Shown here piece after piece: positions 6,641 through 35,325 of a stretch of 36,583 nt of DNA (position 1 is the stretch's first letter; every line of letters begins with the position of its first letter). Origin of the DNA: a virus; IMG/VR virus record IMGVR_UViG_3300032770_000064, positions 1 through 36,583 of that record; one strand, 5' to 3'. Position numbers and translations under genes: made by a program. The notes under the pieces are model-generated. The model worked only from the letters and a program-made list of their open reading frames with translations, was not told where the DNA came from and searched no databases.

Positions 6641-6724
6641 ATGCCGTACATAATCGCATACCTACTTGGAGTACTAACTTGGCTTATACTGAGAATCATC
6701 TTCAAACGTTGGAGAAGTCTATGA
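6641..6724 (+). CDS. 27-aa membrane microprotein
   Basis: The frame encodes one hydrophobic helix with a basic end (MPYIIAYLLGVLTWLILRII, then FKRWRSL). The stop TGA overlaps the ATG of the nuclease gene (ATGA, 6721-6724). That geometry recurs throughout this operon and supports both the microprotein and the choice of 6721 as the nuclease start. There is only a weak AAGG upstream. Function unknown. Confidence 0.45.
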   Translation: MPYIIAYLLGVLTWLILRIIFKRWRSL

Positions 6725-9668: not shown

Positions 9669-9699
9669 CTGGCCGTCCAGCGCAAGGAAGGGGAATGAC

Positions 9700-10569: not shown

Positions 10570-10598
10570 GGAAGGTGAGGCATATACCGTGGTGAGGT

Positions 10599-10826: not shown

Positions 10827-10828
10827 CT

Positions 10829-13263: not shown

Positions 13264-13605
13264 ATGGCAATTGGTGACTCCATAGCTACACCTCAGTGGT
13301 TACAGCCATTCATTGAGGATTGGTTTGACCCCTACCCTCTCAATGGTACTGGCCCCATCGAGCCTCCAGCCGGTGCAAAGGTATGGGTTAACCCTGGTTT
13401 CTCCAAGAAGGATCAAGCTATTGAGAATGCTATACGCTGGCACAACGCTGGACACATTGTTGCGTGTTACCTCCCCATCGAGTCATCAACCCAATATGGT
13501 AAGCGCCTGATTCAGTATGGTGTACGCAGACTATACTTCGATAGACGCCCTTATCCAGACTGCCGTAACATCGAGATATTCATACTGACTGCGGGGCGCA
13601 TGTGA
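13264..13605 (+). CDS. Dam-like (phage DNA N6-adenine methyltransferase family) short or degenerate protein
   Basis: A 113-residue protein resembling the phage Dam family (PF05869-like): TPQWLQPFIEDWFDPYPLNG, then VWVNPGFSKKDQAIENAIRW, then HNAGHIVACYLPIESSTQYG. The position of the catalytic N/DPPY/F box is occupied by NPGF, so the second proline is lost, and the protein is shorter than usual family members. It may be an inactive or specialised derivative. It overlaps the polymerase start (GTGA). Confidence 0.55.
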   Translation: MAIGDSIATPQWLQPFIEDWFDPYPLNGTGPIEPPAGAKVWVNPGFSKKDQAIENAIRWHNAGHIVACYLPIESSTQYGKRLIQYGVRRLYFDRRPYPDCRNIEIFILTAGRM

Positions 13606-16250
13606 GCATAGACCTAGATATCCTACCAGCTCTACCAACGGTCAACGGCCCGTATTGTGGTGTCTGCCCCAACCAGATGAACGGCATCCGTATGATCCCC
13701 CCTGATGGTCAGGGATACAGTGGGGTGATGATAGTGGGAGATAGTGGGTGGGAGTGGGAAGCCAAAGAGGGACGGGTGTTTGCAGGGCCAGCCGGTCAAT
13801 TTCTTGAGAAGCATATATTCAGGCGGTTAGGAGTCCAACGCAATGCCTTCACGCTCACAAACACGACATGGTGTAAAGCCCCATACCTCAACTTCTACGA
13901 TAAGGCTGGGCCAGAGGCTACAGTTATCATAGAGCACTGCCGCCCTTATCTTGATGAGCTTATTGACAAGGTTAAGCCCAAGGTTATTGTACCTATGGGG
14001 AATGTAGCACTGAGACGGGTGTGTGGGGTTAATGGCATCCAAGCGCATCAGTGTTATGTTCATGACACTCCCTATGGAATTCCTGCTGTTCCTACCTATC
14101 ACCCATCCTACCTGATGCAAGACAATCTCGCCTTTACCCCTGTAGCTCTCTTTGCGATGCGTAGAGCATTAGAGATAGCAAAGGCTGGAAGATTTGAAAG
14201 GATACTAACGGACTACTGCCTTGATCCATCCCTACCAGACCTGAAGCAGTGGATGGCTCGATATGGACACAGCTTTGACCTTACTCATGCGGTTGACATT
14301 GAGAACCCTTGGGGTAAGCTAGAGGATCGGGATAAAGACGACCCACATAAGGGTTCTGGATGGGAGATTACTAGGTGTGGATTTAGCTTTAATAGGGAGC
14401 TAGAAACGACGGGTAAGATTAGCTGTGGTCTTGCTGCTAGCTATCCTTGGGCGGAACCATTCATTAGCTTTACTAGGGAGTTACTAGCTAGGGCAAAACG
14501 TGTCGTATACCAGAATGCTAACCATGACCGTCCTAGGCTGGATGCTGCTGAGTGTCCTACCCTTGGGGCTGTAGATGATACGATGTGGTGCTTTCACTAT
14601 TTGCAGAGTGATTTACCCAAAGGCCTGAAGTTCTTTGCACCCTTCTATACAGACATGCCTGAGTGGGCCTCCCAGAAGGATGCACAACCTGCTTGGTACA
14701 ACGCTTGCGACAACGACGCCACGCTTCGCAGCTTTTTTGGGATGCGCGACTGGCTGATCCGGCAAGGCCGCTGGGAGCGTTTTAAACGCCATTGTAGCGA
14801 CACGGCTGCGCTTCTGGGGGAAATGTCCAGCGCAGGCGTTCTCGTTGACGTAGCGGCCCGCCAGACGCTTCAGGATGGCCTTCGTAGCGAGATTGCCCAG
14901 CTCGATTCCCAAATCCAGGCCGCTGTGCCCCGCGAGCTGCTCCCGGTGAAGGAACTGAAAACTGACCGAACGCTGAAGGAGCTACCTGATGAAGAGCGGG
15001 CCGACTGGGAACCTGTACAAGTTGTCTGCGAGTGTAAGCGAGTGCGTAAAGCCACAGGGCGGTGCCTCCTATGTGACGATACAAGGAGTGTTACCCACTA
15101 CAGAAAGCGACTGGCCTTTAATTGGAACTCCACCGACCAAGTACAAGACCTTGCTCGTCACTTCAAGTTCACCATCCCCAAGAAACGTGGAGAGGATCGT
15201 GAAGCCCTCGAAGCCAAGACACTAAAGAGCTTTGGCAAGAAGAAACGGGTGTTTGCTGACATCCTTGCGGCTAGGCAGAGGCACAAGTTAGTCAGTACCT
15301 ATAACTGGGAGTGCGATAGTGAAGGTAGGGTACACACAAAGTTTGGGTTTCATCCTTCTAATTGGAGGAAAAGCAGCCGTGATCCTAATCTCCAAAACAT
15401 CCCTAAGCGTAACGAGCTAGCTGCTGCCTTTAGGCGTACCATCATTGCTGCTCCTGGTCATGTTCTCATAGAGGCTGATTCGAGTGCTATAGAGGCGGTT
15501 CTTGTAGGCTATTGTGCCCAAAGCCCTCGATATATCAAGATTGCTCAAGCTGGCATACATGGCTTTGTTACTAGTCACAGACTTGCACTGAGAGATGGTG
15601 GTAGGGGTATTGACCCTAACCTACCCTTCGATGAGTTAACTAAGCAGTGCAAGAAGGTTAAGAAGGACTTTCCTAATGACTATGAGAATGCCAAGCGTGG
15701 GGATCATGCTGTGAACTATATGCTCTCTGCCTTCGGCCTTAATGATGAGGCTCCTGATGAGTTCCCTACCAAGAAGCTAGCACAGGACTTTATAGACTTC
15801 TACTTCAGCTTGTTCCCAGAGCTTCCTCCTTGGCAGAGGAATACTATCAAGCAAGCTGACATGCAGACCTTCCTAGATAACCATTTCCAGTACAGACACT
15901 ATTTCTTTGCCTGCACTAAATGGAATAGTAAGTATCAAAAGTGGGACTTGGGAAGTGACGCTAAGAGGGCTGTTAGCTTTGTACCATCATCAGATGCGAG
16001 TGCTATCCAATCAGAGGATTTGCTGACACTTGCAGAGATACCTGATATACGAAGGATGCTAAGGCTCATTGTGCATGATTCACACATTCTTGAGTGTCCT
16101 ATTAATGATGTGGAGTATGTATGCCCCATCCTACACTCAACCATGTCTCGCCCCCGTCCAGAGCTAGGAGGGCTAGAGATTGGGGTGGAAATCAAATATG
16201 GGCCTAATCTACAAGATACACAGTTATGGGTGCCGCCTAGCATTAACTAG
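13602..16250 (+). CDS. family-4 uracil-DNA glycosylase fused to family A DNA polymerase
   Basis: An 882-residue replicative polymerase. Residues ~15-200 are a UDG family-4 domain: Fe-S-type cysteines C19, C22, C91 and C113; a motif-1 region GDSGWEWEAKEGRVFAGPAG (46-65); KPKVIVPMGNVALRRV; and YHPSYLM (166-172). A 3'-5' exonuclease domain follows, with DIE (232-234), N307-x-D309 and Y366-x3-D370. A cysteine knuckle (C476, C478, C488, C491) is inserted before the palm. Polymerase motifs: A is EADSSAIEAVLVG with D626 and E631; B is NAKRGDHAVNY (696-706); C is VHDSHIL, with HDS at 825-827 instead of HDE. The same fusion type is known from SPO1-like polymerase. The start is GTG at 13602, overlapping the previous stop. 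A central stretch is markedly GC-richer than its flanks. Confidence 0.9.
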   Translation: MSIDLDILPALPTVNGPYCGVCPNQMNGIRMIPPDGQGYSGVMIVGDSGWEWEAKEGRVFAGPAGQFLEKHIFRRLGVQRNAFTLTNTTWCKAPYLNFYDKAGPEATVIIEHCRPYLDELIDKVKPKVIVPMGNVALRRVCGVNGIQAHQCYVHDTPYGIPAVPTYHPSYLMQDNLAFTPVALFAMRRALEIAKAGRFERILTDYCLDPSLPDLKQWMARYGHSFDLTHAVDIENPWGKLEDRDKDDPHKGSGWEITRCGFSFNRELETTGKISCGLAASYPWAEPFISFTRELLARAKRVVYQNANHDRPRLDAAECPTLGAVDDTMWCFHYLQSDLPKGLKFFAPFYTDMPEWASQKDAQPAWYNACDNDATLRSFFGMRDWLIRQGRWERFKRHCSDTAALLGEMSSAGVLVDVAARQTLQDGLRSEIAQLDSQIQAAVPRELLPVKELKTDRTLKELPDEERADWEPVQVVCECKRVRKATGRCLLCDDTRSVTHYRKRLAFNWNSTDQVQDLARHFKFTIPKKRGEDREALEAKTLKSFGKKKRVFADILAARQRHKLVSTYNWECDSEGRVHTKFGFHPSNWRKSSRDPNLQNIPKRNELAAAFRRTIIAAPGHVLIEADSSAIEAVLVGYCAQSPRYIKIAQAGIHGFVTSHRLALRDGGRGIDPNLPFDELTKQCKKVKKDFPNDYENAKRGDHAVNYMLSAFGLNDEAPDEFPTKKLAQDFIDFYFSLFPELPPWQRNTIKQADMQTFLDNHFQYRHYFFACTKWNSKYQKWDLGSDAKRAVSFVPSSDASAIQSEDLLTLAEIPDIRRMLRLIVHDSHILECPINDVEYVCPILHSTMSRPRPELGGLEIGVEIKYGPNLQDTQLWVPPSIN

Positions 16251-18393: not shown

Positions 18394-20028
18394 TTAGAAC
18401 ATACTTACAAAGTTGGCCGCTTTCGGCGGAGAGATTGCCCCTGCCGATGGCCGGAAGCCGCTTAGTAAAATCTGCCAGAAGCCGGTCGTGGTTGCGCTCT
18501 TGGCGTAGGTTGCCGTGTAAGTGGTCACTGTAGTAAGCAATTTATACGCCGGAGACTGAGGGCCATCTGAGCTAAGGTCAACCAGTGGGGATTGTGGTGT
18601 CATCGTTCCCGCTCCCTCGTAGACTACTCCTGTGGCATAGAACAACTCTCCCGGAACCAGCGGCGTGAACGAACCTGAGGTCACGTTGCCCGCGCCGGTT
18701 GCAGTCCCGGAACTGACCAGTACGTTGTCGTCGGCAATATAGTCGATGCCGGAAAACTCTGCTATGCCCGCCATCGAGAATACACAGGTTACGGTGTCTG
18801 CACCTGTCGAGGGGGCAAATCCAGCCTGAAATTGCGTAACCGGGAAAACCTGATTTGATCCAGAGCCAAGCATGTACGTCAGGTTGACATTGTGAAATGC
18901 CGTGTTCAAAGTATCGGTGCAGTACTGCACACCGCCACTGCCACTCGCCCCGCTCTGAACAAAACCCATCGAGACAATAACCAAATCCCCGCTAGTAACG
19001 TTGCTGGTGAACGCAAGATTGGTTTTATTAGTGGCTCCGACCTTGAACTGCACTTCGCTGATGGTGTTGACTGTAGCTCCTACTTTAAGGCTTATCGTCT
19101 CAGTCGCGGTGTTTGGCGTGGGTGTAGCGGAATCGGTGACCTTGAAGGTTATGGAGTTCAGCGTTGCGGCTGTCGGAGTGCCCGTGATGCAGCCCGTGGA
19201 GGTGTTGAGTGACAGGCCCGATTGCAGCGACCCTGAAGTGATTGACCATGTGTATGCACCGATTCCGCCCGCAGCCTGCAAGCACCAGTCATAGGAATTC
19301 GTAAGTGAGCCATCGGGGGCAGTGGCCAGACTGGTGACTGCCAGCGTTGGTGTGGTCTTGAGCGCGACAATCAGGGCGGTGACTTGCGTATTACCGTTGT
19401 TGATGAACGACGCTCCATAAGTGCCATTCGTGCCTGCGATGCTGAACGCGGTGCAGTTGGAGTCGCTACCTTGCGCAAGAGCGAATTGCTGCCAACCGCT
19501 CGTAGTAACAGTGCAGGAGCCAGAGCTTTGAAAACCGCCTGCGTAGCCAAAGAGCAAATCGTTGTTATAGGCTGTAGTGATATTGCCGGTAGCGAACGTA
19601 GAAGGAGTGCCCGTGGTCGTGGTCGAGGTTGAGGCGTCTACGGTTAGCGACCAGTAAGGTGGAAACTCCGCGCACGCTCCACCCTGAAACGCAGAGCTAG
19701 TCCATGTGATAGTAACAGCCTCGGAACCCGATGAACCCAGTATGGTTCCATAGACAGCTACCCGAATACTGTTGCTGGTGTTTATGTAAAGCTGCGTCCA
19801 CGAACTGCTGCGCGTATCGCTGAAGGTGGGAGAACCGCTGGAACTCTCTACACTCCACCCACAAATAAGCAAATTACCGCTGGTCACGTTCCTGTCCATC
19901 GTGATGGTCGTGGTACGCGACCGCTGGGTCTGTACGATAGGAATATAGGGATAGGACGCAGTAATGGATTGCCCCCAGCAGGGCAGCGACAGCGCGAGAA
20001 TGAGCCACCCGCACCTTATTGTGCGCAT
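18394..20028 (-). CDS. secreted modular adhesin-like protein, duplicated domain around a putative Ig domain
   Basis: A 544-residue protein. ATG 20028 (MRTIRC) is chosen because it has GGAG six bases upstream and starts a signal peptide (CGWLILALSLPCWG-Q); the longer frame to 20274 is antisense-like sequence within the fibre gene. Domain A (~22-225) contains NVTSGNLLICGWSVESS. A He_PIG-like domain follows (~228-318; AAGGIGAYTWSITSGSLQSG, STGCITGTP). A second copy, A' (~323-540), contains NVTSGDLVIVSMGF. The A-Ig-A' layout suggests a surface-binding protein. It overlaps the preceding fibre gene by 13 bases. No catalytic motif is visible. Confidence 0.65.
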   Translation of the reverse strand: MRTIRCGWLILALSLPCWGQSITASYPYIPIVQTQRSRTTTITMDRNVTSGNLLICGWSVESSSGSPTFSDTRSSSWTQLYINTSNSIRVAVYGTILGSSGSEAVTITWTSSAFQGGACAEFPPYWSLTVDASTSTTTTGTPSTFATGNITTAYNNDLLFGYAGGFQSSGSCTVTTSGWQQFALAQGSDSNCTAFSIAGTNGTYGASFINNGNTQVTALIVALKTTPTLAVTSLATAPDGSLTNSYDWCLQAAGGIGAYTWSITSGSLQSGLSLNTSTGCITGTPTAATLNSITFKVTDSATPTPNTATETISLKVGATVNTISEVQFKVGATNKTNLAFTSNVTSGDLVIVSMGFVQSGASGSGGVQYCTDTLNTAFHNVNLTYMLGSGSNQVFPVTQFQAGFAPSTGADTVTCVFSMAGIAEFSGIDYIADDNVLVSSGTATGAGNVTSGSFTPLVPGELFYATGVVYEGAGTMTPQSPLVDLSSDGPQSPAYKLLTTVTTYTATYAKSATTTGFWQILLSGFRPSAGAISPPKAANFVSMF

Positions 20029-21572
20029 GTCAACTCCAGCTCGAAATTGATATAGCCCGTACCGCTCGTCGTACCTAAGTTGGCTGCCACAATGTCGCCA
20101 GGTGTGAAGGTCGTCGTGGTAAAGTCTGTCAGTGTCGTGCTTTCTTTGACCGTTCCTGTGGAAAGCTGAACGCCGCTCGTGCTGATCGTATTCGATACCG
20201 TTGGAATGGCGGTGCCAGCGGCTACCTTCCACGTCTGGATTGTGCCCGTACCGGCATCTGCCGCAATGTCCCAACCTACTAACGTGCAGGCTGAACCGAA
20301 AGCAGCGGGCACAACGAAGTAGCCCAGCACTCCGGTTGAGAGTGCGGTGCCACCGGGTTGACCGGCTTGGAAAGAAATGGCGTGAACGAGCGTAGCCGCT
20401 ACAGGAAGATTGCTGGAATTCAGGCCAATGGCCGGGGTTGCACCGTTGGTGATAGCCGCATACGGAGTCCCCCCTTTCAACAAGCCGGTTGGTGCGCTAG
20501 ACGGAATCTGGCCTTCTTGAGCAGTGGTTGTGATCGTAGAAGCTGCGTCCTGCACCACAACACTGCGGTTAGCTGTCAATGCCGCCGTATTAAAGTCCGC
20601 CGCCTTGCTTGCCGAGCCTCCAATGAACACGTCGCCCCAAGGCAGCAGCACGGTGCCTAGATTCTTTGCAGCCGCAACAGAAGGTGTAATAGTTTCTGTA
20701 ACGGTAAGTGTTGTTGCATTGTCGTTTATATGTGCTGCGCCCAATCCACCAGAACCGTTGTTGGTTTGCAAATCACCAGACGAGCCAGCTACACTAAGGT
20801 GAGCAGGGCATGTTGAGCCAGCGGAGCATGTAAGCGTACCACCAGAATCAATCGTCAACGTCTGGCCACTGGCAACATGCCCCGGTACAAGCACATTAGA
20901 AGCGGTGGTAGTGCCAAACCCGCTAAACTCTCCTGCCGAACCAACACCAGAATCTACCCTTACTACACCAGTACCCGATGGAAGAACTCCAGTAACTGAA
21001 CCACATCCCGGCCTGCCTGAAGTATCTATAGCATTAACGTACTGCAAGCTAGGACAAGTACCACCCGGAATGTTCCCATTTACCTTAACTACACCAGGAT
21101 TAGGATAGGTTCCATCCAAGTCCCCTCCCGCTGGGCCGGTTGGTGAACCTCCACCCCCACCACCTCCTCCATTACCTGCTAGCTCCTGTGCAATCTCTGT
21201 TAGCTTATCCAACCCCCTACCAGTCGTCCCCGCCAACGCTGGCATGTTGTCATAGAACGCTATAGCTTGGGTTATAGGGGTGACCCTAGTCAGAACAACT
21301 GTACCAACTGTACATGGATATAGAGTCCCAAGTGTAACACTCCCACCATTGTTATAGTTATTGTTCAGGGGGACTACTGTATAACTGGTAGGAGTAAGTA
21401 CTGTACCCGCTAATGTCACAGTCAGTGCAGTAGGATCGCTGATAGGAAAGTTAAACACGTATGGGCCAAAGCCACCGCTGCATGTATAGGTGACACTATA
21501 GGGCACATCCGGCACTGTGGCCCATGCCGTAGGACAGCCCAACAGTATCAGCCATAGAAGTGCCCGCTTCAT
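20016..21572 (-). CDS. tail fibre with T7-type N-domain behind a signal peptide
   Basis: A 518-residue protein. Residues 1-18 look like a Sec signal peptide (MKRALLWLILLGCPTAWA). Residues ~22-132 match the phage T7 tail-fibre N-terminal pattern: YVFNFPISDPTALTVTLAG, PTSYTVVPL, TVVLTRVTPITQ and DKLTEIAQELA. A glycine tract follows, then GPAGGDLDGTYPNPGVVKV, a motif frequent in fibre shafts. The rest is low-complexity beta-rich shaft, and the tip (~400-518) is a beta domain ending ELTCAQ. GAGGGATGG precedes ATG 21572. A signal peptide on a virion fibre is unexpected. Confidence 0.75.
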   Translation of the reverse strand: MKRALLWLILLGCPTAWATVPDVPYSVTYTCSGGFGPYVFNFPISDPTALTVTLAGTVLTPTSYTVVPLNNNYNNGGSVTLGTLYPCTVGTVVLTRVTPITQAIAFYDNMPALAGTTGRGLDKLTEIAQELAGNGGGGGGGGSPTGPAGGDLDGTYPNPGVVKVNGNIPGGTCPSLQYVNAIDTSGRPGCGSVTGVLPSGTGVVRVDSGVGSAGEFSGFGTTTASNVLVPGHVASGQTLTIDSGGTLTCSAGSTCPAHLSVAGSSGDLQTNNGSGGLGAAHINDNATTLTVTETITPSVAAAKNLGTVLLPWGDVFIGGSASKAADFNTAALTANRSVVVQDAASTITTTAQEGQIPSSAPTGLLKGGTPYAAITNGATPAIGLNSSNLPVAATLVHAISFQAGQPGGTALSTGVLGYFVVPAAFGSACTLVGWDIAADAGTGTIQTWKVAAGTAIPTVSNTISTSGVQLSTGTVKESTTLTDFTTTTFTPGDIVAANLGTTSGTGYINFELELTCAQ

Positions 21573-21573
21573 G

Positions 21574-22116
21574 TTACCATCCCTCAGCGCGGAAGATTAA
21601 ATCCAAGGTAATGTTTGCACTATGTACAGTATTGACAGTTATCGCCACTGTAAGAGCGCTGCGTACCACTGGATAGCCCGTAACCACTGTCGAGGTCGTA
21701 AGGACTATAGGTGTCAACTGGGCAGCGGTGGAGCTACCATTCGTGGTAAGCAGTCCAGCATCCAGCGCAAATCCCTGCACGTCCTTAATAGTTACGGTGT
21801 AATTATTGGTAGGCTGTGTAGTCCCAGGAGTCCTGCCTACCTCATATAACCTATAACCAGTAAGATTATAAGTATTGAGTGCATTAGTGGGGTAGAAACC
21901 TGTGAGTGGGATGGTAATAGCTGGGAAGCTACCATCACTTGAGCTGCCCACACAGACTAGAGTTACAATTACTGTCCCTGAGTCTGCTATACGATTACTG
22001 GTAGCTGCAATCTGCGTGCTGGTTACATCTGACACTGCACAGCTACCAGCAGTAGCCACAGCATATGGGGCCAGTCCTAGAACGGCTAAGAGCAGCCCTA
22101 TAAGTAGACGTTTCAT
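21574..22116 (-). CDS. secreted 180-aa beta-rich protein with signal peptide
   Basis: ATG 22116 has AGGAGG six bases upstream. Residues 1-21 are a signal peptide (MKRLLIGLLLAVLGLAPYAV, A-x-A cleavage region). The mature part is Thr/Ser-rich and beta-rich (SGTVIVTLVCVGSSSDGSFP; NTYNLTGYRLYEVGRTPGT) and resembles pilus- or fibre-type sandwich domains. It ends one base before the fibre start. It could be a fibre accessory or an exported decoy; I do not recognise the family. Confidence 0.65.
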   Translation of the reverse strand: MKRLLIGLLLAVLGLAPYAVATAGSCAVSDVTSTQIAATSNRIADSGTVIVTLVCVGSSSDGSFPAITIPLTGFYPTNALNTYNLTGYRLYEVGRTPGTTQPTNNYTVTIKDVQGFALDAGLLTTNGSSTAAQLTPIVLTTSTVVTGYPVVRSALTVAITVNTVHSANITLDLIFRAEGW

Positions 22117-22125: not shown

Positions 22126-23382
22126 CTAGAAATCTATTCCCCAAGATGACAAGTCACTGAGGTTATCCTTCAGGTCATCCATACTGCCACTGGTCACAGT
22201 TAGCTCAGTACCCCGTACTTGCTCACCAATTTCCTTGACTTCCTCCGTGCAACTCTCAAGTGAATTACCGTAAGCAACGATGGCTCCAACTTCCTCACCG
22301 GAGTTTTGCGGGAGTATCCAGGTTTCTTTGCCGAACTGCGCTGCGTATCTGAGCTTAATCTGGTCACGGTACTCCTCTGGGAACTCTATGAGCATTGGCT
22401 TCTCTGGTGACCATTTGCTCTTAATGAGTACCTCGCAGCCGTAGCGTCCCCGATACTGCGGCTCTACCAGCTTGCCCCCAGAGCCTTCCCACATAATCTC
22501 CGGCAGGTTGGCAATCATGTTCAACTCCAGCTCGCTCACCGGAGAACCGAACCGGCAGCAGGGGTCAGCCAGCCACAGCCCCTTTGCGCCCACGCACGAT
22601 TCAAACGCAATCAAATTTCGATATTTGTACTGTTCCAGCGTTGGTGAAATTTTATCGTAGATGTCAACCAGCGCGGGCGGCATCTTGTTCCAGTCCTTCA
22701 CGCTGCACACGTAGCCCATGTCCTTCTGCTCCACGCCTAGCATGGCGCGGGAGGGGTACTCACCATCAATGCAGTAGGTGTCGATGGCTATGTCCAGCGT
22801 ATCGGGCAGATTGTCCTCCACCACAAAGTCACGGCTCTCGGCTACCGGCCCAAATTCAGCTTCCATCGTGTCCAAGCGGCCCTTAGCCAAGTCATAACCC
22901 TCGACGCTAAAGGTTTCAGTGTCTCCACGAGTGCGGTTAATCTTGACCCAGAGTTTGTCATGGCCCCGGCTCCTGATGTACTTCCTAAGTTCATCCATAC
23001 CTGTAACTATCTTGTATGGAGCTTGGGGGATGCCCAGTTCCTTGAAGTGCTCCTTAGCAGCAGTACGGTTGCACTCTAGCTCATCAGCATTACGGCTACC
23101 CCATACACGCTTGCCTATTGAAGCTAGGTATTCTTGCAATGGCCCTTGGTGAAGATCAGTGAATACGAATAGGTCTACATCGTCAATGATGTCCCAGATA
23201 CTATCCACACGTTCATAGTCTGGGAAGCCTTCACCTAGCTCTGTTTTGTACGAGCTTGGGAAGTCTGCTACCCAAGGGGAGGTATAGTATACATGCCCAA
23301 AGGACTGACTGAGCTTGCGGGCTACCTCCGCAAAGATGCCATTGTCGCAAATACAGACCGAGTGTGTAGAATGGTCAGCCAC
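22126..23382 (-). CDS. ATP-grasp ligase, GARS/PurD-like
   Basis: A 418-residue protein with the layout of phosphoribosylamine-glycine ligase-type ATP-grasp enzymes. It has a nucleotide-fold start (SVCICDNGIFAEVARKLSQS), FTDLHQGPLQEYLASIGKRV (74-93), GSRNADELECNRTAAKEHF (95-113) and GIPQAPYKIV (117-126). The lysine strand LWVKINRTRGDTETF (144-158) and FVVEDNLP bind ATP, and LADPCCRFGSP is the metal-site strand equivalent to E-N-R-GDP. The substrate is unknown. No other purine gene is present and the gene lies in the virion module, so nucleotide synthesis is doubtful and peptide or amine ligation is possible. The GTG start at 23382 overlaps the stop of the HELAE gene. A central part is GC-richer than its ends. 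Confidence 0.75.
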   Translation of the reverse strand: MADHSTHSVCICDNGIFAEVARKLSQSFGHVYYTSPWVADFPSSYKTELGEGFPDYERVDSIWDIIDDVDLFVFTDLHQGPLQEYLASIGKRVWGSRNADELECNRTAAKEHFKELGIPQAPYKIVTGMDELRKYIRSRGHDKLWVKINRTRGDTETFSVEGYDLAKGRLDTMEAEFGPVAESRDFVVEDNLPDTLDIAIDTYCIDGEYPSRAMLGVEQKDMGYVCSVKDWNKMPPALVDIYDKISPTLEQYKYRNLIAFESCVGAKGLWLADPCCRFGSPVSELELNMIANLPEIMWEGSGGKLVEPQYRGRYGCEVLIKSKWSPEKPMLIEFPEEYRDQIKLRYAAQFGKETWILPQNSGEEVGAIVAYGNSLESCTEEVKEIGEQVRGTELTVTSGSMDDLKDNLSDLSSWGIDF

Positions 23383-23756
23383 TATAAGCTCTCTACAGCC
23401 CTATTATAAGTACTCCACTTAACTCCCAACTCCTTAGCCAGCATCTTCTCTACCTTGGTAGCAAACTGATGCTCACGGTAGTAAGGGGCATTAGGATCAT
23501 CCCCAGGCTCACTCTCATCCCCACCCTTACGCTTGGCCTCATACGCGATGTCGAATAGGTCTACCTCAGACTGGCTGATGTTACGCTGCTTACATAGCAG
23601 GCACTCAGCGAGTTCATGGAAGGCTACTAGCATCTCATAGCGCCAGTTACGCATGTCTGAGATGAATATGGTAAGGTTATCGCCTTCCCATACCCAGTCC
23701 CCGACTGTTGGATACCGCTGTTGGTGGTTCGGGATAACTTTGATAGTTACCTGCAT
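23382..23756 (-). CDS. 124-aa HELAE-motif protein, zincin-like
   Basis: The protein contains VAFHELAECLLC (44-55), an HExxE variant of the HExxH zinc-protease helix with H47, E48 and E51, and a later PYYREHQFATKVEKML whose H96 or E95 could complete a metal site. SEPGDDPNAPY lies between them. Similar small proteins occur in phages, but I know of no proven activity. The start at 23756 overlaps the stop of the internal virion protein (TAATG), and its end overlaps the ATP-grasp start (TAGTG), so the pair is tightly coupled. Confidence 0.6.
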   Translation of the reverse strand: MQVTIKVIPNHQQRYPTVGDWVWEGDNLTIFISDMRNWRYEMLVAFHELAECLLCKQRNISQSEVDLFDIAYEAKRKGGDESEPGDDPNAPYYREHQFATKVEKMLAKELGVKWSTYNRAVESL

Positions 23757-26700
23757 TAGCGTGCCCCTGATAGATGATATCCCTTACGCTTGCTGCTATC
23801 CTTCTTTGGCCCCTCATGGTACACAGACGCACCAGCGAGAGCTGCTAGGAAGTCCTTATAGCTAAGACTCTCATCCGGGTTCATGTAACGCTCTACGATG
23901 TCCTTCACTACGAACGGGGAGGGGAATAACTGCTCTGCACCGAATGCCAGCTCCTTACCCGATTTGGTAAGCACATCCTCCTTGGGCTTATAGATTGGCT
24001 TACCCTGCCAGTCCTTATTAAGCAGCATTCTAGCTCCAGTGCCGAATAGCGGGGATGCTTTGTTAATGGAGAACTCTACAGCACCGGCAGGAAATCCATC
24101 CTTAGCTACCTTATTCATCAGTCCTACAGCATCCTTGGGAGCACCAGCAAGGAAGATACTACTATACATCTCCTTACCCTTGTCATCCTTACCCATATAG
24201 ACACTGAACGCTTGCTTGGACATCTGGCCTGTCAGGAATAGACTCATGCCTTGGGTCATTGCATATCCAGTAGCAAATGACTTTAGCCAGAACGCACGAG
24301 CAGCTTTACCTCCAGCCCCACCTTCGCCAGCATACTTCAGATTGGCTACGTTACTGAATGTCCAGTCAGGAGCAAGCAGGAACATACGAGCGATAGCTTG
24401 GAAGTTGGCGCTGACTCCCATAACCTCCCAGTTCAAGCCACCGTAAACTGCATTGACCTCTTTAGCTATCGAGCGCATGGCTGTGCCATATTCAGCGTCA
24501 GTAGCGTTAGGATGCTTGGCTAGCCATTGTGCTTCCTTAGCAGAGAAGTCTATTACCTTGAACTTACGCTGAACTACTTCAAAGGTAGCTTTGGTTACAC
24601 CCTTGAATATCTTATCTATAGGCTCGTAGCCCTTACGAACTGTATCGAGTAGAGTGCTACGATCCTCTACACTGGAAGGCTTAAGTCCCTGATAGGCTTC
24701 ATAGGGAGTACCAGTCTTGGTAGTCTCCAGACCATATAGTGCCCCCTTACGCTCCTGTGCCTCAAACTCAGGGGAGTTGTTATCAGTAGCTAGAGCCTTG
24801 CGGTAAGCGTCTATGCCAGCATTATTCATAAACGAGATGGTAAGTGCTCTCATGTGGAATGGTGACAGTCCTAACTCGATAGACTTAATGTAAGCCTGTG
24901 CCAGCTTTGCCACCTTCCAGTACTTAGCACCTGAGATTACATCATTCTCAAGCACAGGCTTCATAGCTTCGGCTATCTTTGGAGGAACGTGCAACCCCTT
25001 ACGTTCACCTGTCAGGGATACCCAGTTACGTGGGTAATTTTCAGTTTTCTCACCCGTTTCAGGGTCTTTCTCAACACGAACACCTTCCTTGCCAAGCTCA
25101 CTATTTTTCAGCTCCATTTCAAATACGCTACGAGCTACAGTAGTGCCTAACCTGTTACCGTACACTCGTAGTTCATCAACTGCATTGAAGGTACGCGCCT
25201 CTACCTCACCACTCTTTAGTGGTTCAAGGATTCGCAGGTATTCACGCCTAATATCATTTGGGGATCGTTTGGAGAACTTCCCCACACCCTTACCCGAAGT
25301 ATCCGCAGCCTGCCCAACCCCAAGCTCTGCCCTCTCCTCCTCATCCTCAATTAACCTTGTAAACAATCTGGGACTATAGCGGTTGGCGAATATACTACTA
25401 TCCAGCTTCATAAAGTTGGTTCGCAAGTCGCCAGTTTGTGAGAAGTAGTTAGTTAACAGGTCATCGGCTTTCTTGAAGTTATCAAAGTTCTCAGTTGGTT
25501 CCCGCTCACCTTCAATCCTATATTTAGAGTACTCTACAGGGTCTAGTATCTTTAATGCACGCTCCATTGATGGTATTGCCTGTTTGAGCTTTTCGTTACT
25601 GCCTGCACGTATCTCCTCTATATCCTTCTGAAGTGCATAAGGATCATCACGGTAGTCCCTGTAGAATGTCAGAGCTTCTTGGTCTATTGAGTCTGGTACA
25701 AGTTTCGCTACGCTGCTGGCAACCTGCTCCCCGTAGGCTCTGACCATGTTCCGTGTGCCTGTAAAGAGGGTACGAATAACTGACTTGCCATACCCCTCTG
25801 ACTTGTTCCCAGCTTTGATATTGTTTAGTTCCTCTCTATTCTTCGCAAGGAACCCTTGTAGCTCCGCAGACACACCTGTAAGTGTTTCATCACCCTCAAG
25901 TACAGTACGCTGGGCTACTCTATTCTGAGCCTCTTCGTAATCTGCTGCATGGAACTCTCCACCACTGATACCTTCCCACATAGCAAAGACTTCAGGCTCA
26001 TTATCACGTACCCATTTCTTAGCCTGTGTACGGCTTAGGAAGTCACCGCTCTGGGTAGTGAAGCCTCTACCTGACTTCACTAATGCTTTAGGTGGTATAT
26101 CCTCTGGAGGCGTACCTGACTCAAGCAATAACTGACTACTGGCAGTTTTCATCTCATAGGCTTTGTCAATTACCTGCTGGACTTGTATCTCAGGCTGGTT
26201 TAGTACCTTATCAATGGCTGATTGTGTTAGAGGACTACGTGGGCCAGTTACACTAGAGTCTAGCTCAAGGGAGCTAGCGCCAGTAACGCCAGCCTCAATA
26301 TCCCTTCCACTAAGCTCCTCCCACTGTTTAGTAGGTATATCTACATACTGTAACTCTCCACCTTTACGGTAGTTCTGTGCATACTCCTTACTAGTAGAGA
26401 AAAACGCTGGGCCTTCATATCTACCAGGCTCTGCACTGCCGTGATATAGCCTAGTCATTCCTTCTGCTGGTGGTGGAGCCTCGAATGTCTTATTAGACTC
26501 AAGCTCCTCAAGTGTAACAGGCGTTTCCCCTAATGCTGACCTAGCAACATCCTCATGCACCTCTCCTGGCTCCCCAACCATTACAGCTTCACTGCCATCC
26601 TTAGCAGTTACACGTATAGCAGGGCGTAGACCGTTCTCAGGGATGTTCTTGACAGGGGGCTGGGCAGCTACTTTGGTGGCTGTCTGCTCTGGTGTAGTAC

Positions 26701-27574
26701 CGTCCTTGGCATAGACATCAATCATGCCTTGCTTTACGCTAGGGAGAGAGCTAACAGCATGGGTGATAACTCCTAGCCCACCTACTAGAACAGCGTTACG
26801 CTCGAAGCTCTCAAGTGTGGGCATCTGCCCGTTAAGTATGGCACCAGCAATGGTCATTGCACTGGCTTGGTAAAAACCACTGAGAGCACTACCACCGAGG
26901 GGGCCAAGCACACTGGGTACTGGCAAGCCACCAGCATAGTGCATCGCCTCACCTGTAAGTAGACCCTTAGCAGACTCCCACAGAGCACTGCCAGTACGGC
27001 TAGCAAGGTCGCTAAAGTTGACTACAGTACCTTTCTGAAGCCTATCCATGTATGCCTTACGTAGTCCAGCATCTACAGTAAAGCCAACATCAGTACCTAT
27101 ACGCGCTCCTTGAGGTAGACCAAAGGACTGTGCTAGAGCACCAAGTACAGCAGGGCCATATAGCACAGGGTCTTTAGCGAACTCTGCCATGTCGTGGATG
27201 AAGTTATCCAGCATGTCATGAGACTCGAATGGTTCTGGGAGCTTCTTGTGGATGGCTAGGGAAAGGGGGTCATCCTCCACAGTAAGGTCTTTGCGGATAT
27301 TGGAAGCAAAGTCACTACCCGTAGCACTTAGACGTTGCTTAATGTAATCGTGCTGGTCATAGGCCAGTTTGGGGTCAGCGCCGGTCATGTGGGAGAAAAT
27401 CAGCGCGGGGAGCAGCTTTCCCATGTCGAGCAAATCGCTGATGGCCCCGCTGGAAGGTGCTACGGCCCCGTCCTGCGACGATGGCTGCTCAATCGGCGTC
27501 CAGCCCTCCGCCTGCGTTGTGGGACGCTCTGGGGCCGTTTGTGGCGATTCTGGCACTAGCGTCCAGCCAGCCAT
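23756..27574 (-). CDS. large internal virion protein (gp16-like) with ADP-ribosyltransferase-like segment
   Basis: A 1272-residue protein in the position of T7 gp16, the ejected protein that helps DNA enter the cell. The N-terminus is proline-rich with WTLVPE and WTPIEQ repeats. Hydrophobic stretches follow (~205-275). Residues 374-414 read TRLYHGSAEPGRYEG ... FFSTSKEYAQNYRKGG ... LQYVDIP, the R/H-Y ... STS ... pattern of ADP-ribosyltransferases. Upstream is a typical linker, KDGSEAVMVGEPGEVH; downstream is GDFLSRTQAKKW. The C-terminal ~700 residues are helical and contain MTQGMSLFLTGQMSKQAFS-type membrane segments. Such fused, injected effectors are known as polyvalent proteins. No lytic transglycosylase motif is visible. 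Confidence 0.7.
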   Translation of the reverse strand: MAGWTLVPESPQTAPERPTTQAEGWTPIEQPSSQDGAVAPSSGAISDLLDMGKLLPALIFSHMTGADPKLAYDQHDYIKQRLSATGSDFASNIRKDLTVEDDPLSLAIHKKLPEPFESHDMLDNFIHDMAEFAKDPVLYGPAVLGALAQSFGLPQGARIGTDVGFTVDAGLRKAYMDRLQKGTVVNFSDLASRTGSALWESAKGLLTGEAMHYAGGLPVPSVLGPLGGSALSGFYQASAMTIAGAILNGQMPTLESFERNAVLVGGLGVITHAVSSLPSVKQGMIDVYAKDGTTPEQTATKVAAQPPVKNIPENGLRPAIRVTAKDGSEAVMVGEPGEVHEDVARSALGETPVTLEELESNKTFEAPPPAEGMTRLYHGSAEPGRYEGPAFFSTSKEYAQNYRKGGELQYVDIPTKQWEELSGRDIEAGVTGASSLELDSSVTGPRSPLTQSAIDKVLNQPEIQVQQVIDKAYEMKTASSQLLLESGTPPEDIPPKALVKSGRGFTTQSGDFLSRTQAKKWVRDNEPEVFAMWEGISGGEFHAADYEEAQNRVAQRTVLEGDETLTGVSAELQGFLAKNREELNNIKAGNKSEGYGKSVIRTLFTGTRNMVRAYGEQVASSVAKLVPDSIDQEALTFYRDYRDDPYALQKDIEEIRAGSNEKLKQAIPSMERALKILDPVEYSKYRIEGEREPTENFDNFKKADDLLTNYFSQTGDLRTNFMKLDSSIFANRYSPRLFTRLIEDEEERAELGVGQAADTSGKGVGKFSKRSPNDIRREYLRILEPLKSGEVEARTFNAVDELRVYGNRLGTTVARSVFEMELKNSELGKEGVRVEKDPETGEKTENYPRNWVSLTGERKGLHVPPKIAEAMKPVLENDVISGAKYWKVAKLAQAYIKSIELGLSPFHMRALTISFMNNAGIDAYRKALATDNNSPEFEAQERKGALYGLETTKTGTPYEAYQGLKPSSVEDRSTLLDTVRKGYEPIDKIFKGVTKATFEVVQRKFKVIDFSAKEAQWLAKHPNATDAEYGTAMRSIAKEVNAVYGGLNWEVMGVSANFQAIARMFLLAPDWTFSNVANLKYAGEGGAGGKAARAFWLKSFATGYAMTQGMSLFLTGQMSKQAFSVYMGKDDKGKEMYSSIFLAGAPKDAVGLMNKVAKDGFPAGAVEFSINKASPLFGTGARMLLNKDWQGKPIYKPKEDVLTKSGKELAFGAEQLFPSPFVVKDIVERYMNPDESLSYKDFLAALAGASVYHEGPKKDSSKRKGYHLSGAR

Positions 27575-29370
27575 TATTGACCCTCCAGTTTCCAGCCGGA
27601 CGGCAAAGGTGTCCCAGGCGCGGCTTCATGTAGATTACCTTGTGGATCGCGGGCATAAATCTTGCTCGGTGTAGCAGTTGGTGCTTTACCAGCCGATGTA
27701 GATGTTGAGCCGAGTCCAGCTGGCTGTACAACAAAGAAGTTCCACAGTTTATCTATGAGGCCATTGGTGGATTTCTTCTTACCTCCATCTACTAGCTCCT
27801 TAGCCTTATCAGCTACCTGATTACCTGTAAGCCCACCCTGCCTGTATTCCCTCCTGAACTCGGCAGCAGTCTTGGCCTTCTCTACAGGGTCGAGTCCAGA
27901 GCTACCAATGATACCTAGGCCATTCTGATAATCAGGGTTATCCACACTGCGCTTATAGTCGTACCACAGTTCGTGTGCCTGCTTATTAGTTAGATTACCT
28001 TTATGTACCTCTGACTCTATATCCCTGTTGAAGTCAAGTTCCTCACCATTGGTGATACGCTCAAAGAGTCGGTCAGAGGTAGTATAGCCCTTTTCCTCAG
28101 CAGCACGCTGCTTATCAATATCTGCATCACGCTTCTCAGCACGGGCAAATCTAGCTTCTGCTCTCTGCTCTGCCTCCCAACTCTTAGCTCCATTCACTAT
28201 CTGTGGGTAATAATCCACTCTAGCTTTCTGGAAGTCAGGGACATACCTACGAGCTAGAGCCAGTCCCGCTCCAATCTTACCCTGTGCAAACAAGTCATAT
28301 ATCTCATCCCGCTCCTCATCAGCCTTCTTACGAGCTTCACCATAGAAATCAGTCTGTGAAGCGTTGATGTAACTCCTCAGCTTCTCCCCCTGTACAAAGT
28401 CGGCAATCGGCTTACCTGTGGATGGATCTGTTGTAACTATGCCATGAGCCATTAGGAAATCAGGGTCTTTGAGGGAAGCTAGTTGGTTATCGAAGTTAGG
28501 ATTACCAGCACTGTCAGAGTAGGGAGCAGACTTGAATACCTCATGCAGGTTATTGAGATTAACATTAATATTCTCAGTCTCAGCGAGTAGCGTTAGGCGT
28601 TTGTCAGTCTCCGCCGCGTGAGTGAGGAACTTGTTAATCTCGCCTTGGTCAAGAGTTGACAGGTCTAGCGGCCCTTTGCCCGTCTTGAGCTGGTCAATTA
28701 CTTGCCTACGTGTTAGGGGGTTAGGACTGTTGATATTAGCATCAAGCACACCAGCAGTAACGTCCTGTTTGAACTTGTGGAGGATAGCTTCCTGCTGTTG
28801 CGGCAGCATCGTACCCATAACATGCACGGAAGCATCTGTTGACATCTTCAGTTGGTCGTAAGCTTGGTCTGCATTACCGCCAGCCATCGTAGCATTGATA
28901 CCCTCTTGAACCTTCTTGTCATACGTGACCTTAGTAGCAGCCTCATCTCCCTTCTGAATGAGAGTAGCCTTCCTGCCATTAACCGTATTCTGTAACTCTA
29001 CGTCCTGTTGAGCACCAAAGATGGCTAGCTGCCTACCAAGTACCTTATCGTGCTCATAGGGAGCAAGGGTGTGTGCCAGTTCTCCCTTAGCATGGTCATA
29101 TACAGCCTGTGCATCTTCAGGCGTTGTAGTCTTGGCTAGGTCAGCATGAACCTGATTAAGTACCCTATCATAAGCTATCTCAGCTTCCTTGGCCTTGAGA
29201 TAACGCTGGGCCTTAATCAGATGCCCTTCAAACGCTAGATTAGCTGCTGCTAGCTGCTGAGTCTCTTCTCCAGCCTCATAGATAGCCTCTCCCACAGAGC
29301 CAAACTGACGCGGAGAGGCATGAGGTAGTGCTACAGGTTCATCAATCGGGAGTCCTGGTATTTGAGGCAT
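27574..29370 (-). CDS. internal virion protein (gp15-like)
   Basis: A 598-residue protein, highly helical and charged, with coiled-coil segments (LIKAQRYLKAKEAEIAYDRV; EQRAEARFARAEKRDADIDK). It has the length and position of T7 gp15, which forms the ejection tunnel with gp14 and gp16. It starts three bases after the gp14-like gene, and its stop overlaps the gp16-like start (TAATG). The C-terminus has a Ser/Thr/Ala-rich linker and DPQGNLHEAAPGTPLPSGW, a motif typical of phage virion protein ends. Assignment is by order and character, not by a diagnostic domain. Confidence 0.7.
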   Translation of the reverse strand: MPQIPGLPIDEPVALPHASPRQFGSVGEAIYEAGEETQQLAAANLAFEGHLIKAQRYLKAKEAEIAYDRVLNQVHADLAKTTTPEDAQAVYDHAKGELAHTLAPYEHDKVLGRQLAIFGAQQDVELQNTVNGRKATLIQKGDEAATKVTYDKKVQEGINATMAGGNADQAYDQLKMSTDASVHVMGTMLPQQQEAILHKFKQDVTAGVLDANINSPNPLTRRQVIDQLKTGKGPLDLSTLDQGEINKFLTHAAETDKRLTLLAETENINVNLNNLHEVFKSAPYSDSAGNPNFDNQLASLKDPDFLMAHGIVTTDPSTGKPIADFVQGEKLRSYINASQTDFYGEARKKADEERDEIYDLFAQGKIGAGLALARRYVPDFQKARVDYYPQIVNGAKSWEAEQRAEARFARAEKRDADIDKQRAAEEKGYTTSDRLFERITNGEELDFNRDIESEVHKGNLTNKQAHELWYDYKRSVDNPDYQNGLGIIGSSGLDPVEKAKTAAEFRREYRQGGLTGNQVADKAKELVDGGKKKSTNGLIDKLWNFFVVQPAGLGSTSTSAGKAPTATPSKIYARDPQGNLHEAAPGTPLPSGWKLEGQ

Positions 29371-29373
29371 AAG

Positions 29374-29904
29374 TTATCCAGTGTACTCTCCAGAGGCAGG
29401 GATACTATAGGGATTATCACTTATATCGAAGCTGCCAGTACTGTCACTACCTCCTCCACCCCCCTCATAACCTGTAGCCCCAGCTAGTTGTAGCAACCCC
29501 TTACTCAATCCACCAAGGAACGCCTGAATTCCTCCAAACGTACCGCGCCATGCTGCTAGCTTTCCATAGTACCGCTCAAGGGTGGCCTTCTCTTGACCAG
29601 CCTCGTAAATCGCCGCACCCTGCCTGCCACCTCTGCCAGCCGTAGCAGCCATCATTAGCAGCGGTGATCCACTCGTAATGTCCACTCCAGCCGCAGCATA
29701 AGCGGTAGCTTGCTTACCTACTATACTAGCGTAACGCTGCTCATTGGCAACCATCGCGGTAGCTGCGTTCTGTTCATCGACGGCTGCATTGTAGTCATAA
29801 CCAGCTTCCTCCTGCTTACCTTGAGCAATCAGTCCAAGACCACTGAACAGGGAGCCTACAGCACCGATACCGAATGAAGCGCCAGCACCAGTCTGGGGTG
29901 ACAT
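29374..29904 (-). CDS. internal virion protein (gp14-like)
   Basis: A 176-residue protein from MSPQTG at 29904, which overlaps the preceding stop (TAATG); an upstream start at 29931 lies in that gene. The N-terminus is glycine-rich and hydrophobic (ASFGIGAVGSLFSGLGLIAQ). It is followed by a long helix with the typical phage pattern YDYNAAVDEQNAATAMVANE, then AAAGVDITSGSPLLMMA and GQEKATLERYYGK. The C-terminus is glycine/serine-rich. This is the usual form of T7 gp14-type ejection proteins. Confidence 0.75.
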   Translation of the reverse strand: MSPQTGAGASFGIGAVGSLFSGLGLIAQGKQEEAGYDYNAAVDEQNAATAMVANEQRYASIVGKQATAYAAAGVDITSGSPLLMMAATAGRGGRQGAAIYEAGQEKATLERYYGKLAAWRGTFGGIQAFLGGLSKGLLQLAGATGYEGGGGGSDSTGSFDISDNPYSIPASGEYTG

Positions 29905-30326
29905 TAGAATAACCTCGCGTATAAGTGGCAATCTTCCCCATTGGGGCCAAAGTGAGCTAGCGTGCCCTCATAACTGAATCCTAGGTGCTTGAACAGGACT
30001 GTAGATACCATTATAGGGCACGTAGTCTGCACTCTCCTGAACTTGCCATCACAGGCAGCCTGTACAAGTACCTCTCGTATGTAGCGGTAACAAGTCCTGA
30101 CATGGCTGTGAAAGAACTTGGTTGGCAGCATCCACGCTTCGCCCCGGCCCCAGTCCATGTTCACGATGCCTCCAGCCAACACAGGCTCTCCATCGACAAG
30201 CATACAGTAAGCTACGCTTCCCAGTGAGAAGTAAGCCTGCTCCACCTTACGGGACATTATCCCAAGTATGGGAATAGCTAGCTTGTCGAAATCACTATGG
30301 CTCATCGGTACTATCTTACAGTCCAT
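29904..30326 (-). CDS. GNAT-fold protein (gp13-like internal virion protein A)
   Basis: A 140-residue protein with the GNAT acetyltransferase topology: AYCMLVDGEPVLAGGIVNMD (beta 2-3), WMLPTKFFHSHVRTCYRYIR (beta 4 to helix) and RRVQTTCPIMVSTVLFKHLG (beta 5 to helix), ending FSYEGTLAHFGPNGEDCHLY. T7 gp13 is a GNAT-like internal virion protein in the same gene order, ahead of gp14. A canonical acetyl-CoA loop (RxxGxG/A) is not evident, so it is probably structural rather than enzymatic. Confidence 0.75.
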   Translation of the reverse strand: MDCKIVPMSHSDFDKLAIPILGIMSRKVEQAYFSLGSVAYCMLVDGEPVLAGGIVNMDWGRGEAWMLPTKFFHSHVRTCYRYIREVLVQAACDGKFRRVQTTCPIMVSTVLFKHLGFSYEGTLAHFGPNGEDCHLYARLF

Positions 30327-34399: not shown

Positions 34400-34401
34400 G
34401 G

Positions 34402-35325
34402 TTAGTACCGATACCAGCTTACATAACGCCCTGCACGCTCCCACGACTCACTGCCTGCTTCGTCTTTTTGGAAATCGAACGTCTCATTCTGGGCCTCAGC
34501 ACTGTTAAGCGAGTCACGGTACATCTGCATCATGGCCTCAAACTTCTTGGAGTCCTCAGTGATAGCTATGGAGACTTCGGCTGCTAGGCGATTGGCTAGA
34601 CAGTTCACAAACCCTGGCATCAGTTGAGTGTAGTCTGTAATGAGCTGGATATAGTTAATCTTGGCCGGGCCGTGCCAGCCCCCATAGTCACACAACAGGT
34701 AGCGTCCTGATGAGCCAGATGGGTTAGGACAGCTCATAGTCTCGCTAGCTACAGTTTGTGCGTTATTGAGTGTGTAAGTACCTATCCCACCCATCCCTGT
34801 ACCAAGAGCTGAGATAAAGGTTCCCGCAGTGACACCATCACCGTAGAGTGGTTGGCTAACCTGTACAGTACCATTAGTCACTGCGGTGACAGTTAGGACA
34901 GTACCAGTAATGCTCCCCACAAAGCTGGCCATTGCTGGTAGCGTTTCTACTACGTAAGGGTACTGGTGGGGGTGGAAGGGCATATCATCACGGTGATACC
35001 ATCCCCATCCTATTCCCCATCCCCATGCCCATAGGTAGTTATCATGCTGGGGTTTACGGTGAGGACGTACAAAGCGTAGAAAGTCAGCAGGCATAGCCCA
35101 TGCGTGACGATAGGCATAGAGCGGGCGTTGAGGACTAAGTTGTAGCTCAGTGCGTATCTTGGCAAACTTCCAATCCCGCTCGCTGAGTACCTCCTGAAAG
35201 ATAGCATCCCATACCGCCAGTACCTTTATGGCATTAGGGGTATTCTCGTTCAGGTCGGTAATGGTGCCACGCGCACCTATGCGACCGAGAGCCAAGTTAG
35301 CAATGCTTGCCTGACTATAGTTCAA
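34402..35325 (-). CDS. tail tubular protein A/head-tail connector (gp11-like) with inserted domain
   Basis: A 307-residue protein. The N-terminus is typical of gp11/connector proteins: [40 protein letters not shown] and [16 protein letters not shown], then [18 protein letters not shown]. Residues ~134-198 are an inserted beta domain ([18 protein letters not shown] ... [13 protein letters not shown]) shared with the nozzle and the cement protein. The family core resumes at [40 protein letters not shown] and the ending YVSWYRY. It joins the portal to the nozzle. Confidence 0.8.

Follow-up and report, generated by a model that had tools for sequence, protein, structure and literature searches.

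A recurrent gene pair encoding a PurD-fold ATP-grasp protein and a putative minimal zincin in uncultivated viruses, archaea and Acidobacteria

The DNA analysed here, referred to as the window, is a stretch of 36,583 nt covering positions 1 to 36,583 of the IMG/VR virus record IMGVR_UViG_3300032770_000064. Two adjoining genes on its minus strand encode a putative minimal zincin of 124 amino acids (aa), designated HEL (nt 23382–23756, ATG start), and a 418-aa protein with a predicted PurD-type ATP-grasp fold, designated GRASP (nt 22126–23382, GTG start). Homologues of the two were found next to each other in 71 non-redundant viral pairs, in both gene orders, and the proteins probably represent two enzymes of one pathway, encoded by a portable two-gene module in which GRASP is a ligase and HEL a hydrolase (estimated probability about 0.55). 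HEL-GRASP is new as a pair of families, though the folds are known. No description of it was found in the full-text literature searched, in which coverage of subscription papers was thin, nor did it appear in the accessible portions of PMC7824862, PMC4431377, PMC3890496, PMC6209634, PMC10580990, PMC6256558 and PMC12043954. An initial annotation had recognized the 124-aa protein with H47, E48 and E51, the 418-aa protein and their coupling by stop/start overlaps, and these features were confirmed in the sequence: the HEL stop and the GRASP GTG start had one base in common in TAGTG (nt 23380–23384, minus strand), as did the stop of the upstream gp16-like gene and the HEL ATG in TAATG (nt 23754–23758, minus strand). 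Its proposed test of adjacency across viruses was carried out and adjacency recurred, so that the homologues are not always separate; the observation is thus confirmed and stronger than had been claimed.

The description of GRASP as GARS-like, that is, resembling glycinamide ribonucleotide (GAR) synthetase, held for the profile and the predicted fold and was weak for the window protein alone, which matched Pfam GARS_A with E 0.043 and 14.1 bits (under the curated cut-off of 27 bits) and NCBIfam purD with E 3.4e-9 and 36 bits (cut-off 288). A PHROGs scan matched neither GRASP nor HEL of the window. The counting profiles were A3, built from 29 GRASPs, and A4, built from 37 HELs. The best matches of A3 were to GAR synthetases and spanned most of the protein (2yw2, E 1.1e-25); PurK was far weaker (E about 1.7e-4) and PurT was absent from the matches listed. 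The structure modelling gave GRASP a pLDDT of 92.9 and a pTM of 0.91, and the model was superposed on 2yw2 with Z 32.4 and rmsd 2.9 Å over 375 residues, followed by PurT, PurK and biotin carboxylase with Z 23–26. GRASP is accordingly predicted to be an ATP-grasp-fold protein over its whole chain, with the full GAR synthetase (PurD) fold. Residues E103, K147, E218, K220 and R277 were invariant in all 166 relatives compared (148 of the 153 non-redundant sequences from viral records, 14 archaeal, 3 acidobacterial and 1 from a GenBank phage), and position 273 was D or E in all of them. The corresponding minus-strand codons in the window were at nt 22944–22942 (K147), 22731–22723 (E218 and K220), 22566–22564 (D/E273) and 22554–22552 (R277). 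In the alignment to PurD, K147 corresponded to the ATP lysine, K220 to the DHK lysine, D/E273 to the Mg glutamate and R277 to the arginine; their catalytic roles are presumably those of ATP-grasp enzymes in general. As sequence positions, the catalytic Lys, the acidic Mg ligand and the Arg at the phosphoryl-transfer site were all present in the set, and we infer that GRASP is an active C-N ligase.

Despite the shared fold and these aligned residues, GRASP appears from its sequence not to be PurD (TIGR00877, PF01071/PF02843), since the PurD motifs are absent and it falls outside the fully supported PurD clade. The N-terminal GGREH motif was present in 15/15 PurD sequences versus 0/162 GRASPs, the GPNTGGMG-type loop in 14/15 versus 0/162, and E-x-N-x-R in 11/15 versus 3/162; the counterpart of the last motif in GRASP is taken to resemble those of PurK and PurT. 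A shorter GP[NS]TG was retained by all 14 archaeal GRASPs and by 49 of the 148 from phages. In a tree of 87 rows, for which the program warned of long branches meeting, 14 PurD rows and the copy of phage Y11 formed a 100/100 group on a branch of 1.46 with no GRASP inside, in agreement with the expectation that GRASP would not cluster within PurD. Scores against NCBIfam purD were 18–102 bits in six GRASP relatives (cut-off 288) and no match was obtained for L099, while Pfam GARS_A was exceeded in eight relatives of the other GRASP clade (L009, L085, L277, L324, L337, L338, L339 and L340). PurT and PurK share the next-best folds (Z about 23–26), but the GRASP profile is far closer to PurD. Besides the weak match of GRASP itself, no purine-synthesis match was obtained among the subset of window ORFs scanned.

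A HAD-like domain was fused to GRASP in a few relatives, C-terminally in L324, L337, L338, L339 and L340 and N-terminally in L141; a HAD-like gene overlapped the GRASP start in L092, and a different, weak HAD match was seen in L099. The label is weak: Pfam was under cut-off for L141, L092 and L099 and gave nothing for any of the five fused at the C-terminus, one of which had polynucleotide kinase as its best PDB match (E 0.052), and the remainder is a reading of motifs. Such fusions were rare, comprising 6 fused ORFs, found by a profile built from those same ORFs, plus L099 among 239 GRASP ORFs of at least 300 aa, and when separate genes next to GRASP were scanned for HAD motifs, 1/153 was positive. 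Rare as they are, these fusions may point to a phosphorylated substrate no less than to a protein.

HEL contains the motif H47-E-L-A-E51, an HExxE (nt 23618–23604, minus strand). Residues G19, H47, E48, E51, H96 and E103 were invariant in 149/149 non-redundant sequences, of which 122 were viral and 27 came from prokaryote contigs. H96, located within APYxxxH (nt 23471–23469, minus strand) and counted as the third invariant histidine, and E103 had been overlooked in the initial annotation. Its suggestion that HEL looks like a metal enzyme was supported; the predicted model has a weakly matched zincin-like fold. No Pfam, PHROGs or NCBIfam model exceeded its cut-off for HEL, fused domains excepted, with sub-threshold matches in Pfam only; by these searches HEL is an unlisted family. 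The predicted model (pLDDT 97.2) consisted of a three-strand sheet, then a helix with HExxE and, further along the chain, another with H96 and E103. Its best structural matches were IrrE/PprI (3dti, Z 5.3), CapP (7t5t, Z 5.0) and 6mdx (Z 4.7), a protease of DNA-protein-crosslink repair which we take to be SprT-like; lower matches were treated as background. The predicted order of elements, sheet first, then the HExx helix and then the helix with H96, resembles that of ImmA/IrrE and SprT-like zincins, but HEL has HExxE plus a downstream His where those proteins have HExxH plus Glu, and Z is only about 5. HEL may thus be a minimal zincin in which the ligands follow the order HExxE...H; structurally, this is the weakest claim of the analysis. 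Fusions of HEL were observed with an Erv1/Alr sulfhydryl-oxidase domain in L049 (nt 6298–7005; Pfam E 1.5e-7), with an ORF of the same length and score in L052 (nt 8001–8708), and with an HNH domain in L009 (nt 6426–7232; E 1e-4). A match of the HEL profile to Erv1 structures was traced to the extra fused domain of L049 and discarded.

Five viral contigs carried close GRASPs (60–81% identical) and five carried HELs (36–65% identical) in the same position, and since these relatives occupy the same place elsewhere, the arrangement is not due to chance. Further loci were collected by profile scans (L001–L066) and by scans with sub-alignments (L129–L340), the later of which took the best 80 of 189, 150 and 176 matches, respectively. 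GRASP was present in 98 of 132 HEL-query loci and within 300 bases in 80 of them, contigs being repeated between scans; HEL was present in 21 of 80 loci found with a GRASP query of the other clade, within 300 bases in 14. After clustering at 90% identity, 123 viral HEL clusters remained, part of them derived from GRASP queries: GRASP lay within 300 bases in 71, farther away in 18 and was not found in the DNA examined in 34. Around 153 GRASPs made non-redundant at 90%, HEL was the commonest neighbour (84/153 within three genes, a figure inflated by the part of the set derived from HEL queries), followed by fibre-like proteins downstream and large virion-module proteins upstream. Among 77 GRASPs with HEL within 300 bases, 45 were HEL-first and 32 GRASP-first, 75 were on the same strand, and 59 overlapped or abutted, some of these overlaps being overstated because ORFs were taken from the first possible start. 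The 71 pairs were flanked by 30 kinds of upstream and 43 kinds of downstream genes (mechanically called ORFs), the largest kinds having 17 and 19 members; the adjacency is therefore not inherited from a single phage layout.

Whole records were then considered for loci with only one partner. GRASP was found elsewhere in the record in 23 of 38 HEL-only loci, the records with GRASP being 20 of the 22 that reach 30 kb and 3 of the 16 shorter ones; the search took in 21 of the 27 loci in the first set and 17 of the 34 in the second, and those left out were other copies of tested contigs or contigs below 17 kb. A general lack of GRASP in HEL-only phages was dropped as an idea on these results. In the reverse direction, 12 of the 13 GRASP-only loci in the first set were searched, along with 29 of the 59 in the second; the rest of the second set comprised five contigs with HEL already recorded at another place and 25 records below 35 kb. 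In those five loci, L277, L281, L283, L290 and L293, HEL was far away on the same contig. About half of the 55 GRASP-scan loci that could be judged (21 + 5 + 29) had HEL, and in view of the GRASP-only records the idea that GRASP requires HEL was likewise dropped. The dependence is one-way: HEL nearly always implies GRASP, and GRASP often occurs without HEL. When the pair was apart, the genes as read by eye placed GRASP in a structural module in most of ten neighbourhoods listed, and HEL in other phages beside terminase, helicase, ParB-like or replication-type genes; the idea that HEL is a mere terminase neighbour holds for some phages only. In L009, the large protein upstream of the GRASP-HEL pair (nt 980–5317) matched a DarB-like antirestriction PHROG (E 4.8e-8).

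Among GenBank phages (50,697 records), tblastn with four HEL query proteins gave no match. With GRASP queries, some returned nothing and others one clear case, MW202796; the other matches were 20–27% identical and mostly unannotated, and those annotated or tested (Salmonella, Acinetobacter and phage Y11) were PurD. In the complete genome MW202796.1, the unannotated GRASP ORF (L409, nt 20001–21332) follows three genes for hypothetical proteins as the last of the late block; HEL was not found in that genome.

The pair, or its members, also occurred in prokaryote genomes. A HEL scan yielded 30 loci, comprising 17 from Thaumarchaeota or Nitrososphaerota/-ales, 5 from unspecified archaea, 1 from Micrarchaeota, 4 from Acidobacteria and 3 from other bacteria. 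GRASP was directly upstream of HEL in the four acidobacterial contigs (L102, L105, L126 and L128), and the surrounding genes were not phage-like by eye in the three inspected. These are contigs of metagenome-assembled genomes (MAGs) and may be misbinned; their lack of visible phage genes indicates that the pair is not only a virion part. In the order of a Bryobacterales MAG, HEL was found in 2 of 150 genomes, both already known, and the chromosomal pair is therefore rare there. In the order of the Nitrososphaerota MAG G103 (151 genomes), GRASP (at least 109 bits) was present in 33 and HEL in 18; the best GRASP match in the other genomes was at most 87 bits, and G326 and G365 (80–87) were not counted. 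GRASP was found in 17 of the 18 genomes with HEL versus 16 of the 133 without it (p 1.5e-12 by Fisher test, without correction for relatedness). In the one remaining HEL genome, G378, A3 matched nothing, so that this MAG is perhaps incomplete. The two archaeal genes lie apart, PurD was present besides GRASP in G339, G341, G344, G349, G312 and G387, and an M1-aminopeptidase-like gene lay within two ORFs of GRASP in five of eight archaeal loci listed, confirmed by Pfam for L375. Intein-like inserts were observed at two catalytic loops of Nitrososphaerota GRASPs, after GPSTGEMG in L379 (nt 8481–10802) and inside LEWT/RFGY in L378 (nt 8546–10870); inteins favour conserved active sites.

Several results weigh against the two proteins being enzymes of one pathway. 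HEL was found in none of the 12 GRASP-only records of the first set and in 2 of the 29 of the second, one of these a weak fragment; the control for HEL detection was positive in 20/20, with the HELs of those records themselves in the profile. The base-rate control by random words comprised 7 viral records, too few to give a usable rate, with GRASP in 0/7 and two positive controls matched. HEL and GRASP are at separate loci in archaea and in many phages, and a stable complex is therefore not implied. The GRASP group of the window and the L009 type were not significantly similar one to one, the two clades being united by iterated profiles alone. For HEL, Foldseek with the model gave no PDB match at E ≤ 0.001, a Z of about 5 is ‘middling’ on the scale of the tool, making the fold match weak, and HExxE, found in 149/149, differs from the usual HExxH. 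In GRASP, the position of the Asn ligand of PurD was Thr or Cys in 163 of 166.

With these points taken into account, the reading of HEL and GRASP as partners in one pathway may be set out as follows. GRASP would bind ATP via K147 and E/D273 with Mg, convert a carboxylate donor to an acyl phosphate via E218, K220 and R277, and couple this to an amine acceptor other than phosphoribosylamine, forming an amide bond. HEL would be a minimal zincin-like hydrolase, with a metal held by H47, E51 and H96 and with E48 as the base; its target in that pathway would be an amide or peptide bond, and it may remove or trim the attachment made by GRASP, or free the substrate of GRASP. In the window phage, the pair is probably co-translated with the genes for internal virion proteins. 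Established by the analysis are the structure of the genes, the invariance of the residues, the fold predicted for GRASP, its separateness from PurD and the association of HEL with GRASP. We infer likewise that HEL is a metal hydrolase in the pathway of GRASP, and the order of the two steps; a role as processor or eraser is suggested because HEL hardly occurs without GRASP, and GRASP often without HEL. A broader proposal, held with somewhat less than even confidence, is that HEL-GRASP constitutes an undescribed writer with a dedicated eraser or trimmer, portable among diverse uncultivated viruses and present also in Nitrososphaerota and Acidobacteria, in which an amino acid would be attached to an acceptor so far not known for PurD-fold enzymes.

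As the acceptor, a protein is about as likely as a small phosphorylated molecule, the latter favoured by the HAD-like fusions and the kinship to PurD, PurT and PurK, the former by the placement in the virion module, the peptidase-like fold of HEL and the aminopeptidase neighbour. GRASP might join an amino acid to a small, nucleotide-like molecule bearing a phosphate, with the HAD-like domains stripping this phosphate and HEL hydrolysing the amide or a competing metabolite, to give a modified nucleotide, a signal or an antimetabolite; the odds of this specific scheme are put a little short of even. It draws on the nearest solved folds, GAR synthetase, PurT and PurK, which act on phosphoribosyl substrates, and on the HAD-like domains fused to or overlapping GRASP (L324, L337–L340, L141 and L092, with L099 weak), but the HAD label is weak, the fusions are rare, and GGREH of PurD is missing in 162/162 GRASPs. 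Alternatively, and at odds of about one in three, the acceptor of an amino acid or peptide ligated by GRASP might be a protein, for example one of the ejected virion proteins, a fibre or a protein of the host, with HEL as a trimming or removing protease. Fibre-like genes downstream and large module proteins upstream are the commonest neighbours of GRASP after HEL (153 loci), the HEL model resembles peptidase-type folds, archaeal GRASPs lie near the M1-aminopeptidase-like gene, and a predicted precedent is given by the phage R2K ATP-grasp ligases in the portions of PMC4431377 and PMC7824862 available; the pair, however, also occurs on contigs without visible virion genes, HEL stands beside terminase or replication-type genes in other phages, and neither a substrate tag nor a conserved acceptor protein came to light. 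The initial annotation had suggested that the pair may modify a virion or host component; action on a virion component is not supported in that form in view of these HEL neighbours, of the GRASPs without HEL and of the archaeal and acidobacterial contigs outside virion modules; virion modification by the pair is possible, and the virion-specific reading is only partly supported.

Two further explanations would remove the need for a joint pathway. That GRASP is a divergent PurD boosting purine synthesis as an auxiliary metabolic gene, with HEL unrelated, accords with the same fold, the weak purD match and the eight relatives of the other clade over the GARS_A cut-off. It is nonetheless extremely unlikely, as PurD forms its own 100/100 group that excludes GRASP, neither GGREH nor the GPNTGGMG-type loop occurs in the 162 GRASPs, six archaeal genomes hold PurD besides GRASP, and the linkage to HEL is left unexplained. 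If instead both proteins were dead or structural and neighbours merely through common phage ancestry, the relatedness of many loci and the altered Mg ligand of PurD in GRASP would be accounted for, but about 150 diverse sequences of each protein show no variation in the residues at catalytic positions, the genes stay adjacent in either order and among dozens of different neighbours, and the archaeal genomes show the same one-way dependence, making this highly improbable.

ATP-grasp proteins of other phages offer points of comparison. According to the accessible portions of PMC4431377 and PMC7824862, the R2K ATP-grasp peptide ligases (CDC123 clade) occur in phages and eukaryotes and are predicted protein modifiers; GRASP differs in its PurD fold, and those portions name no zincin partner for R2K. 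No R2K or CDC123 model was matched in Pfam scans of the GRASPs scanned. The LUZ24-like phage UFV-P2 has a podoviral ATP-grasp gene among C-N bond enzymes (amidoligase and glutamine amidotransferase), but the gene belongs to the early module and its product has 291 aa, and the gene table names no HEL-like partner, the hypothetical proteins there not having been compared with HEL (PMC3890496, in part). Phage sets of ATP-grasp, amidoligase and amidotransferase genes, for which a change of the cell wall has been suggested, are mentioned in the portions available of PMC3890496, PMC6209634 and PMC10580990, and PurD is listed among viral protein clusters in that of PMC12043954.

The surroundings of HEL and GRASP in the window formed a podovirus-like virion module, with matches to internal virion proteins (phrog_418 and phrog_308) and tail proteins (phrog_376 and phrog_394), along with fibre-like genes. 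Upstream of HEL, all on the minus strand, were genes for a large gp16-like protein of 1272 aa (nt 23756–27574), relatives of which lie upstream of HEL and GRASP in L001, L002, L054 and L057; a gp15-like protein of 598 aa of the same module (nt 27574–29370), labelled by position, with an order conserved in relatives; and an internal virion protein (nt 29374–29931; phrog_418, E 9.8e-8). The gp16-like ORF had no family in Pfam and PHROGs scans, its label being the positional one of the initial annotation, and the gp15-like protein had none in the PHROGs scan. Downstream on the same strand, a 180-aa protein was encoded immediately 3′ of GRASP (nt 21574–22116), followed by a 518-aa fibre-like protein (nt 20016–21572), both with a signal-peptide-like N-terminus. 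Three successive genes 3′ of GRASP (nt 18394–22116, minus strand) start with such N-termini, at nt 22116, 21572 and, by eye, probably 20028. By a simple home-made rule, signal peptides were positive in 33 of 90 same-strand genes at +1 and 41 of 99 at +2 in the non-redundant viral GRASP loci, against 15 of 565 genes at −5 to −1; export signals on fibre-like phage proteins are odd. A tail protein (nt 31721–34444, minus strand) matched the E1_FCCH domain of ubiquitin-activating enzyme (E 2.9e-10), probably a common small beta domain. On the opposite strand, nt 13602–16250 encoded a family-A DNA polymerase (Pfam DNA_pol_A, E 8.7e-28) with a fused N-terminal uracil-DNA-glycosylase domain (Pfam UDG, E 2e-19).

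If the proposed pathway is correct, genes of viruses that might be taken for purine genes, such as the eight relatives over the GARS_A cut-off, would instead belong to a pair of enzymes without a name. Among the GenBank phages searched, the pair is almost missing, and it is common to uncultivated viruses, Nitrososphaerota archaea and Acidobacteria. As two small-to-medium proteins with invariant active-site residues, HEL and GRASP would make the chemistry directly testable.

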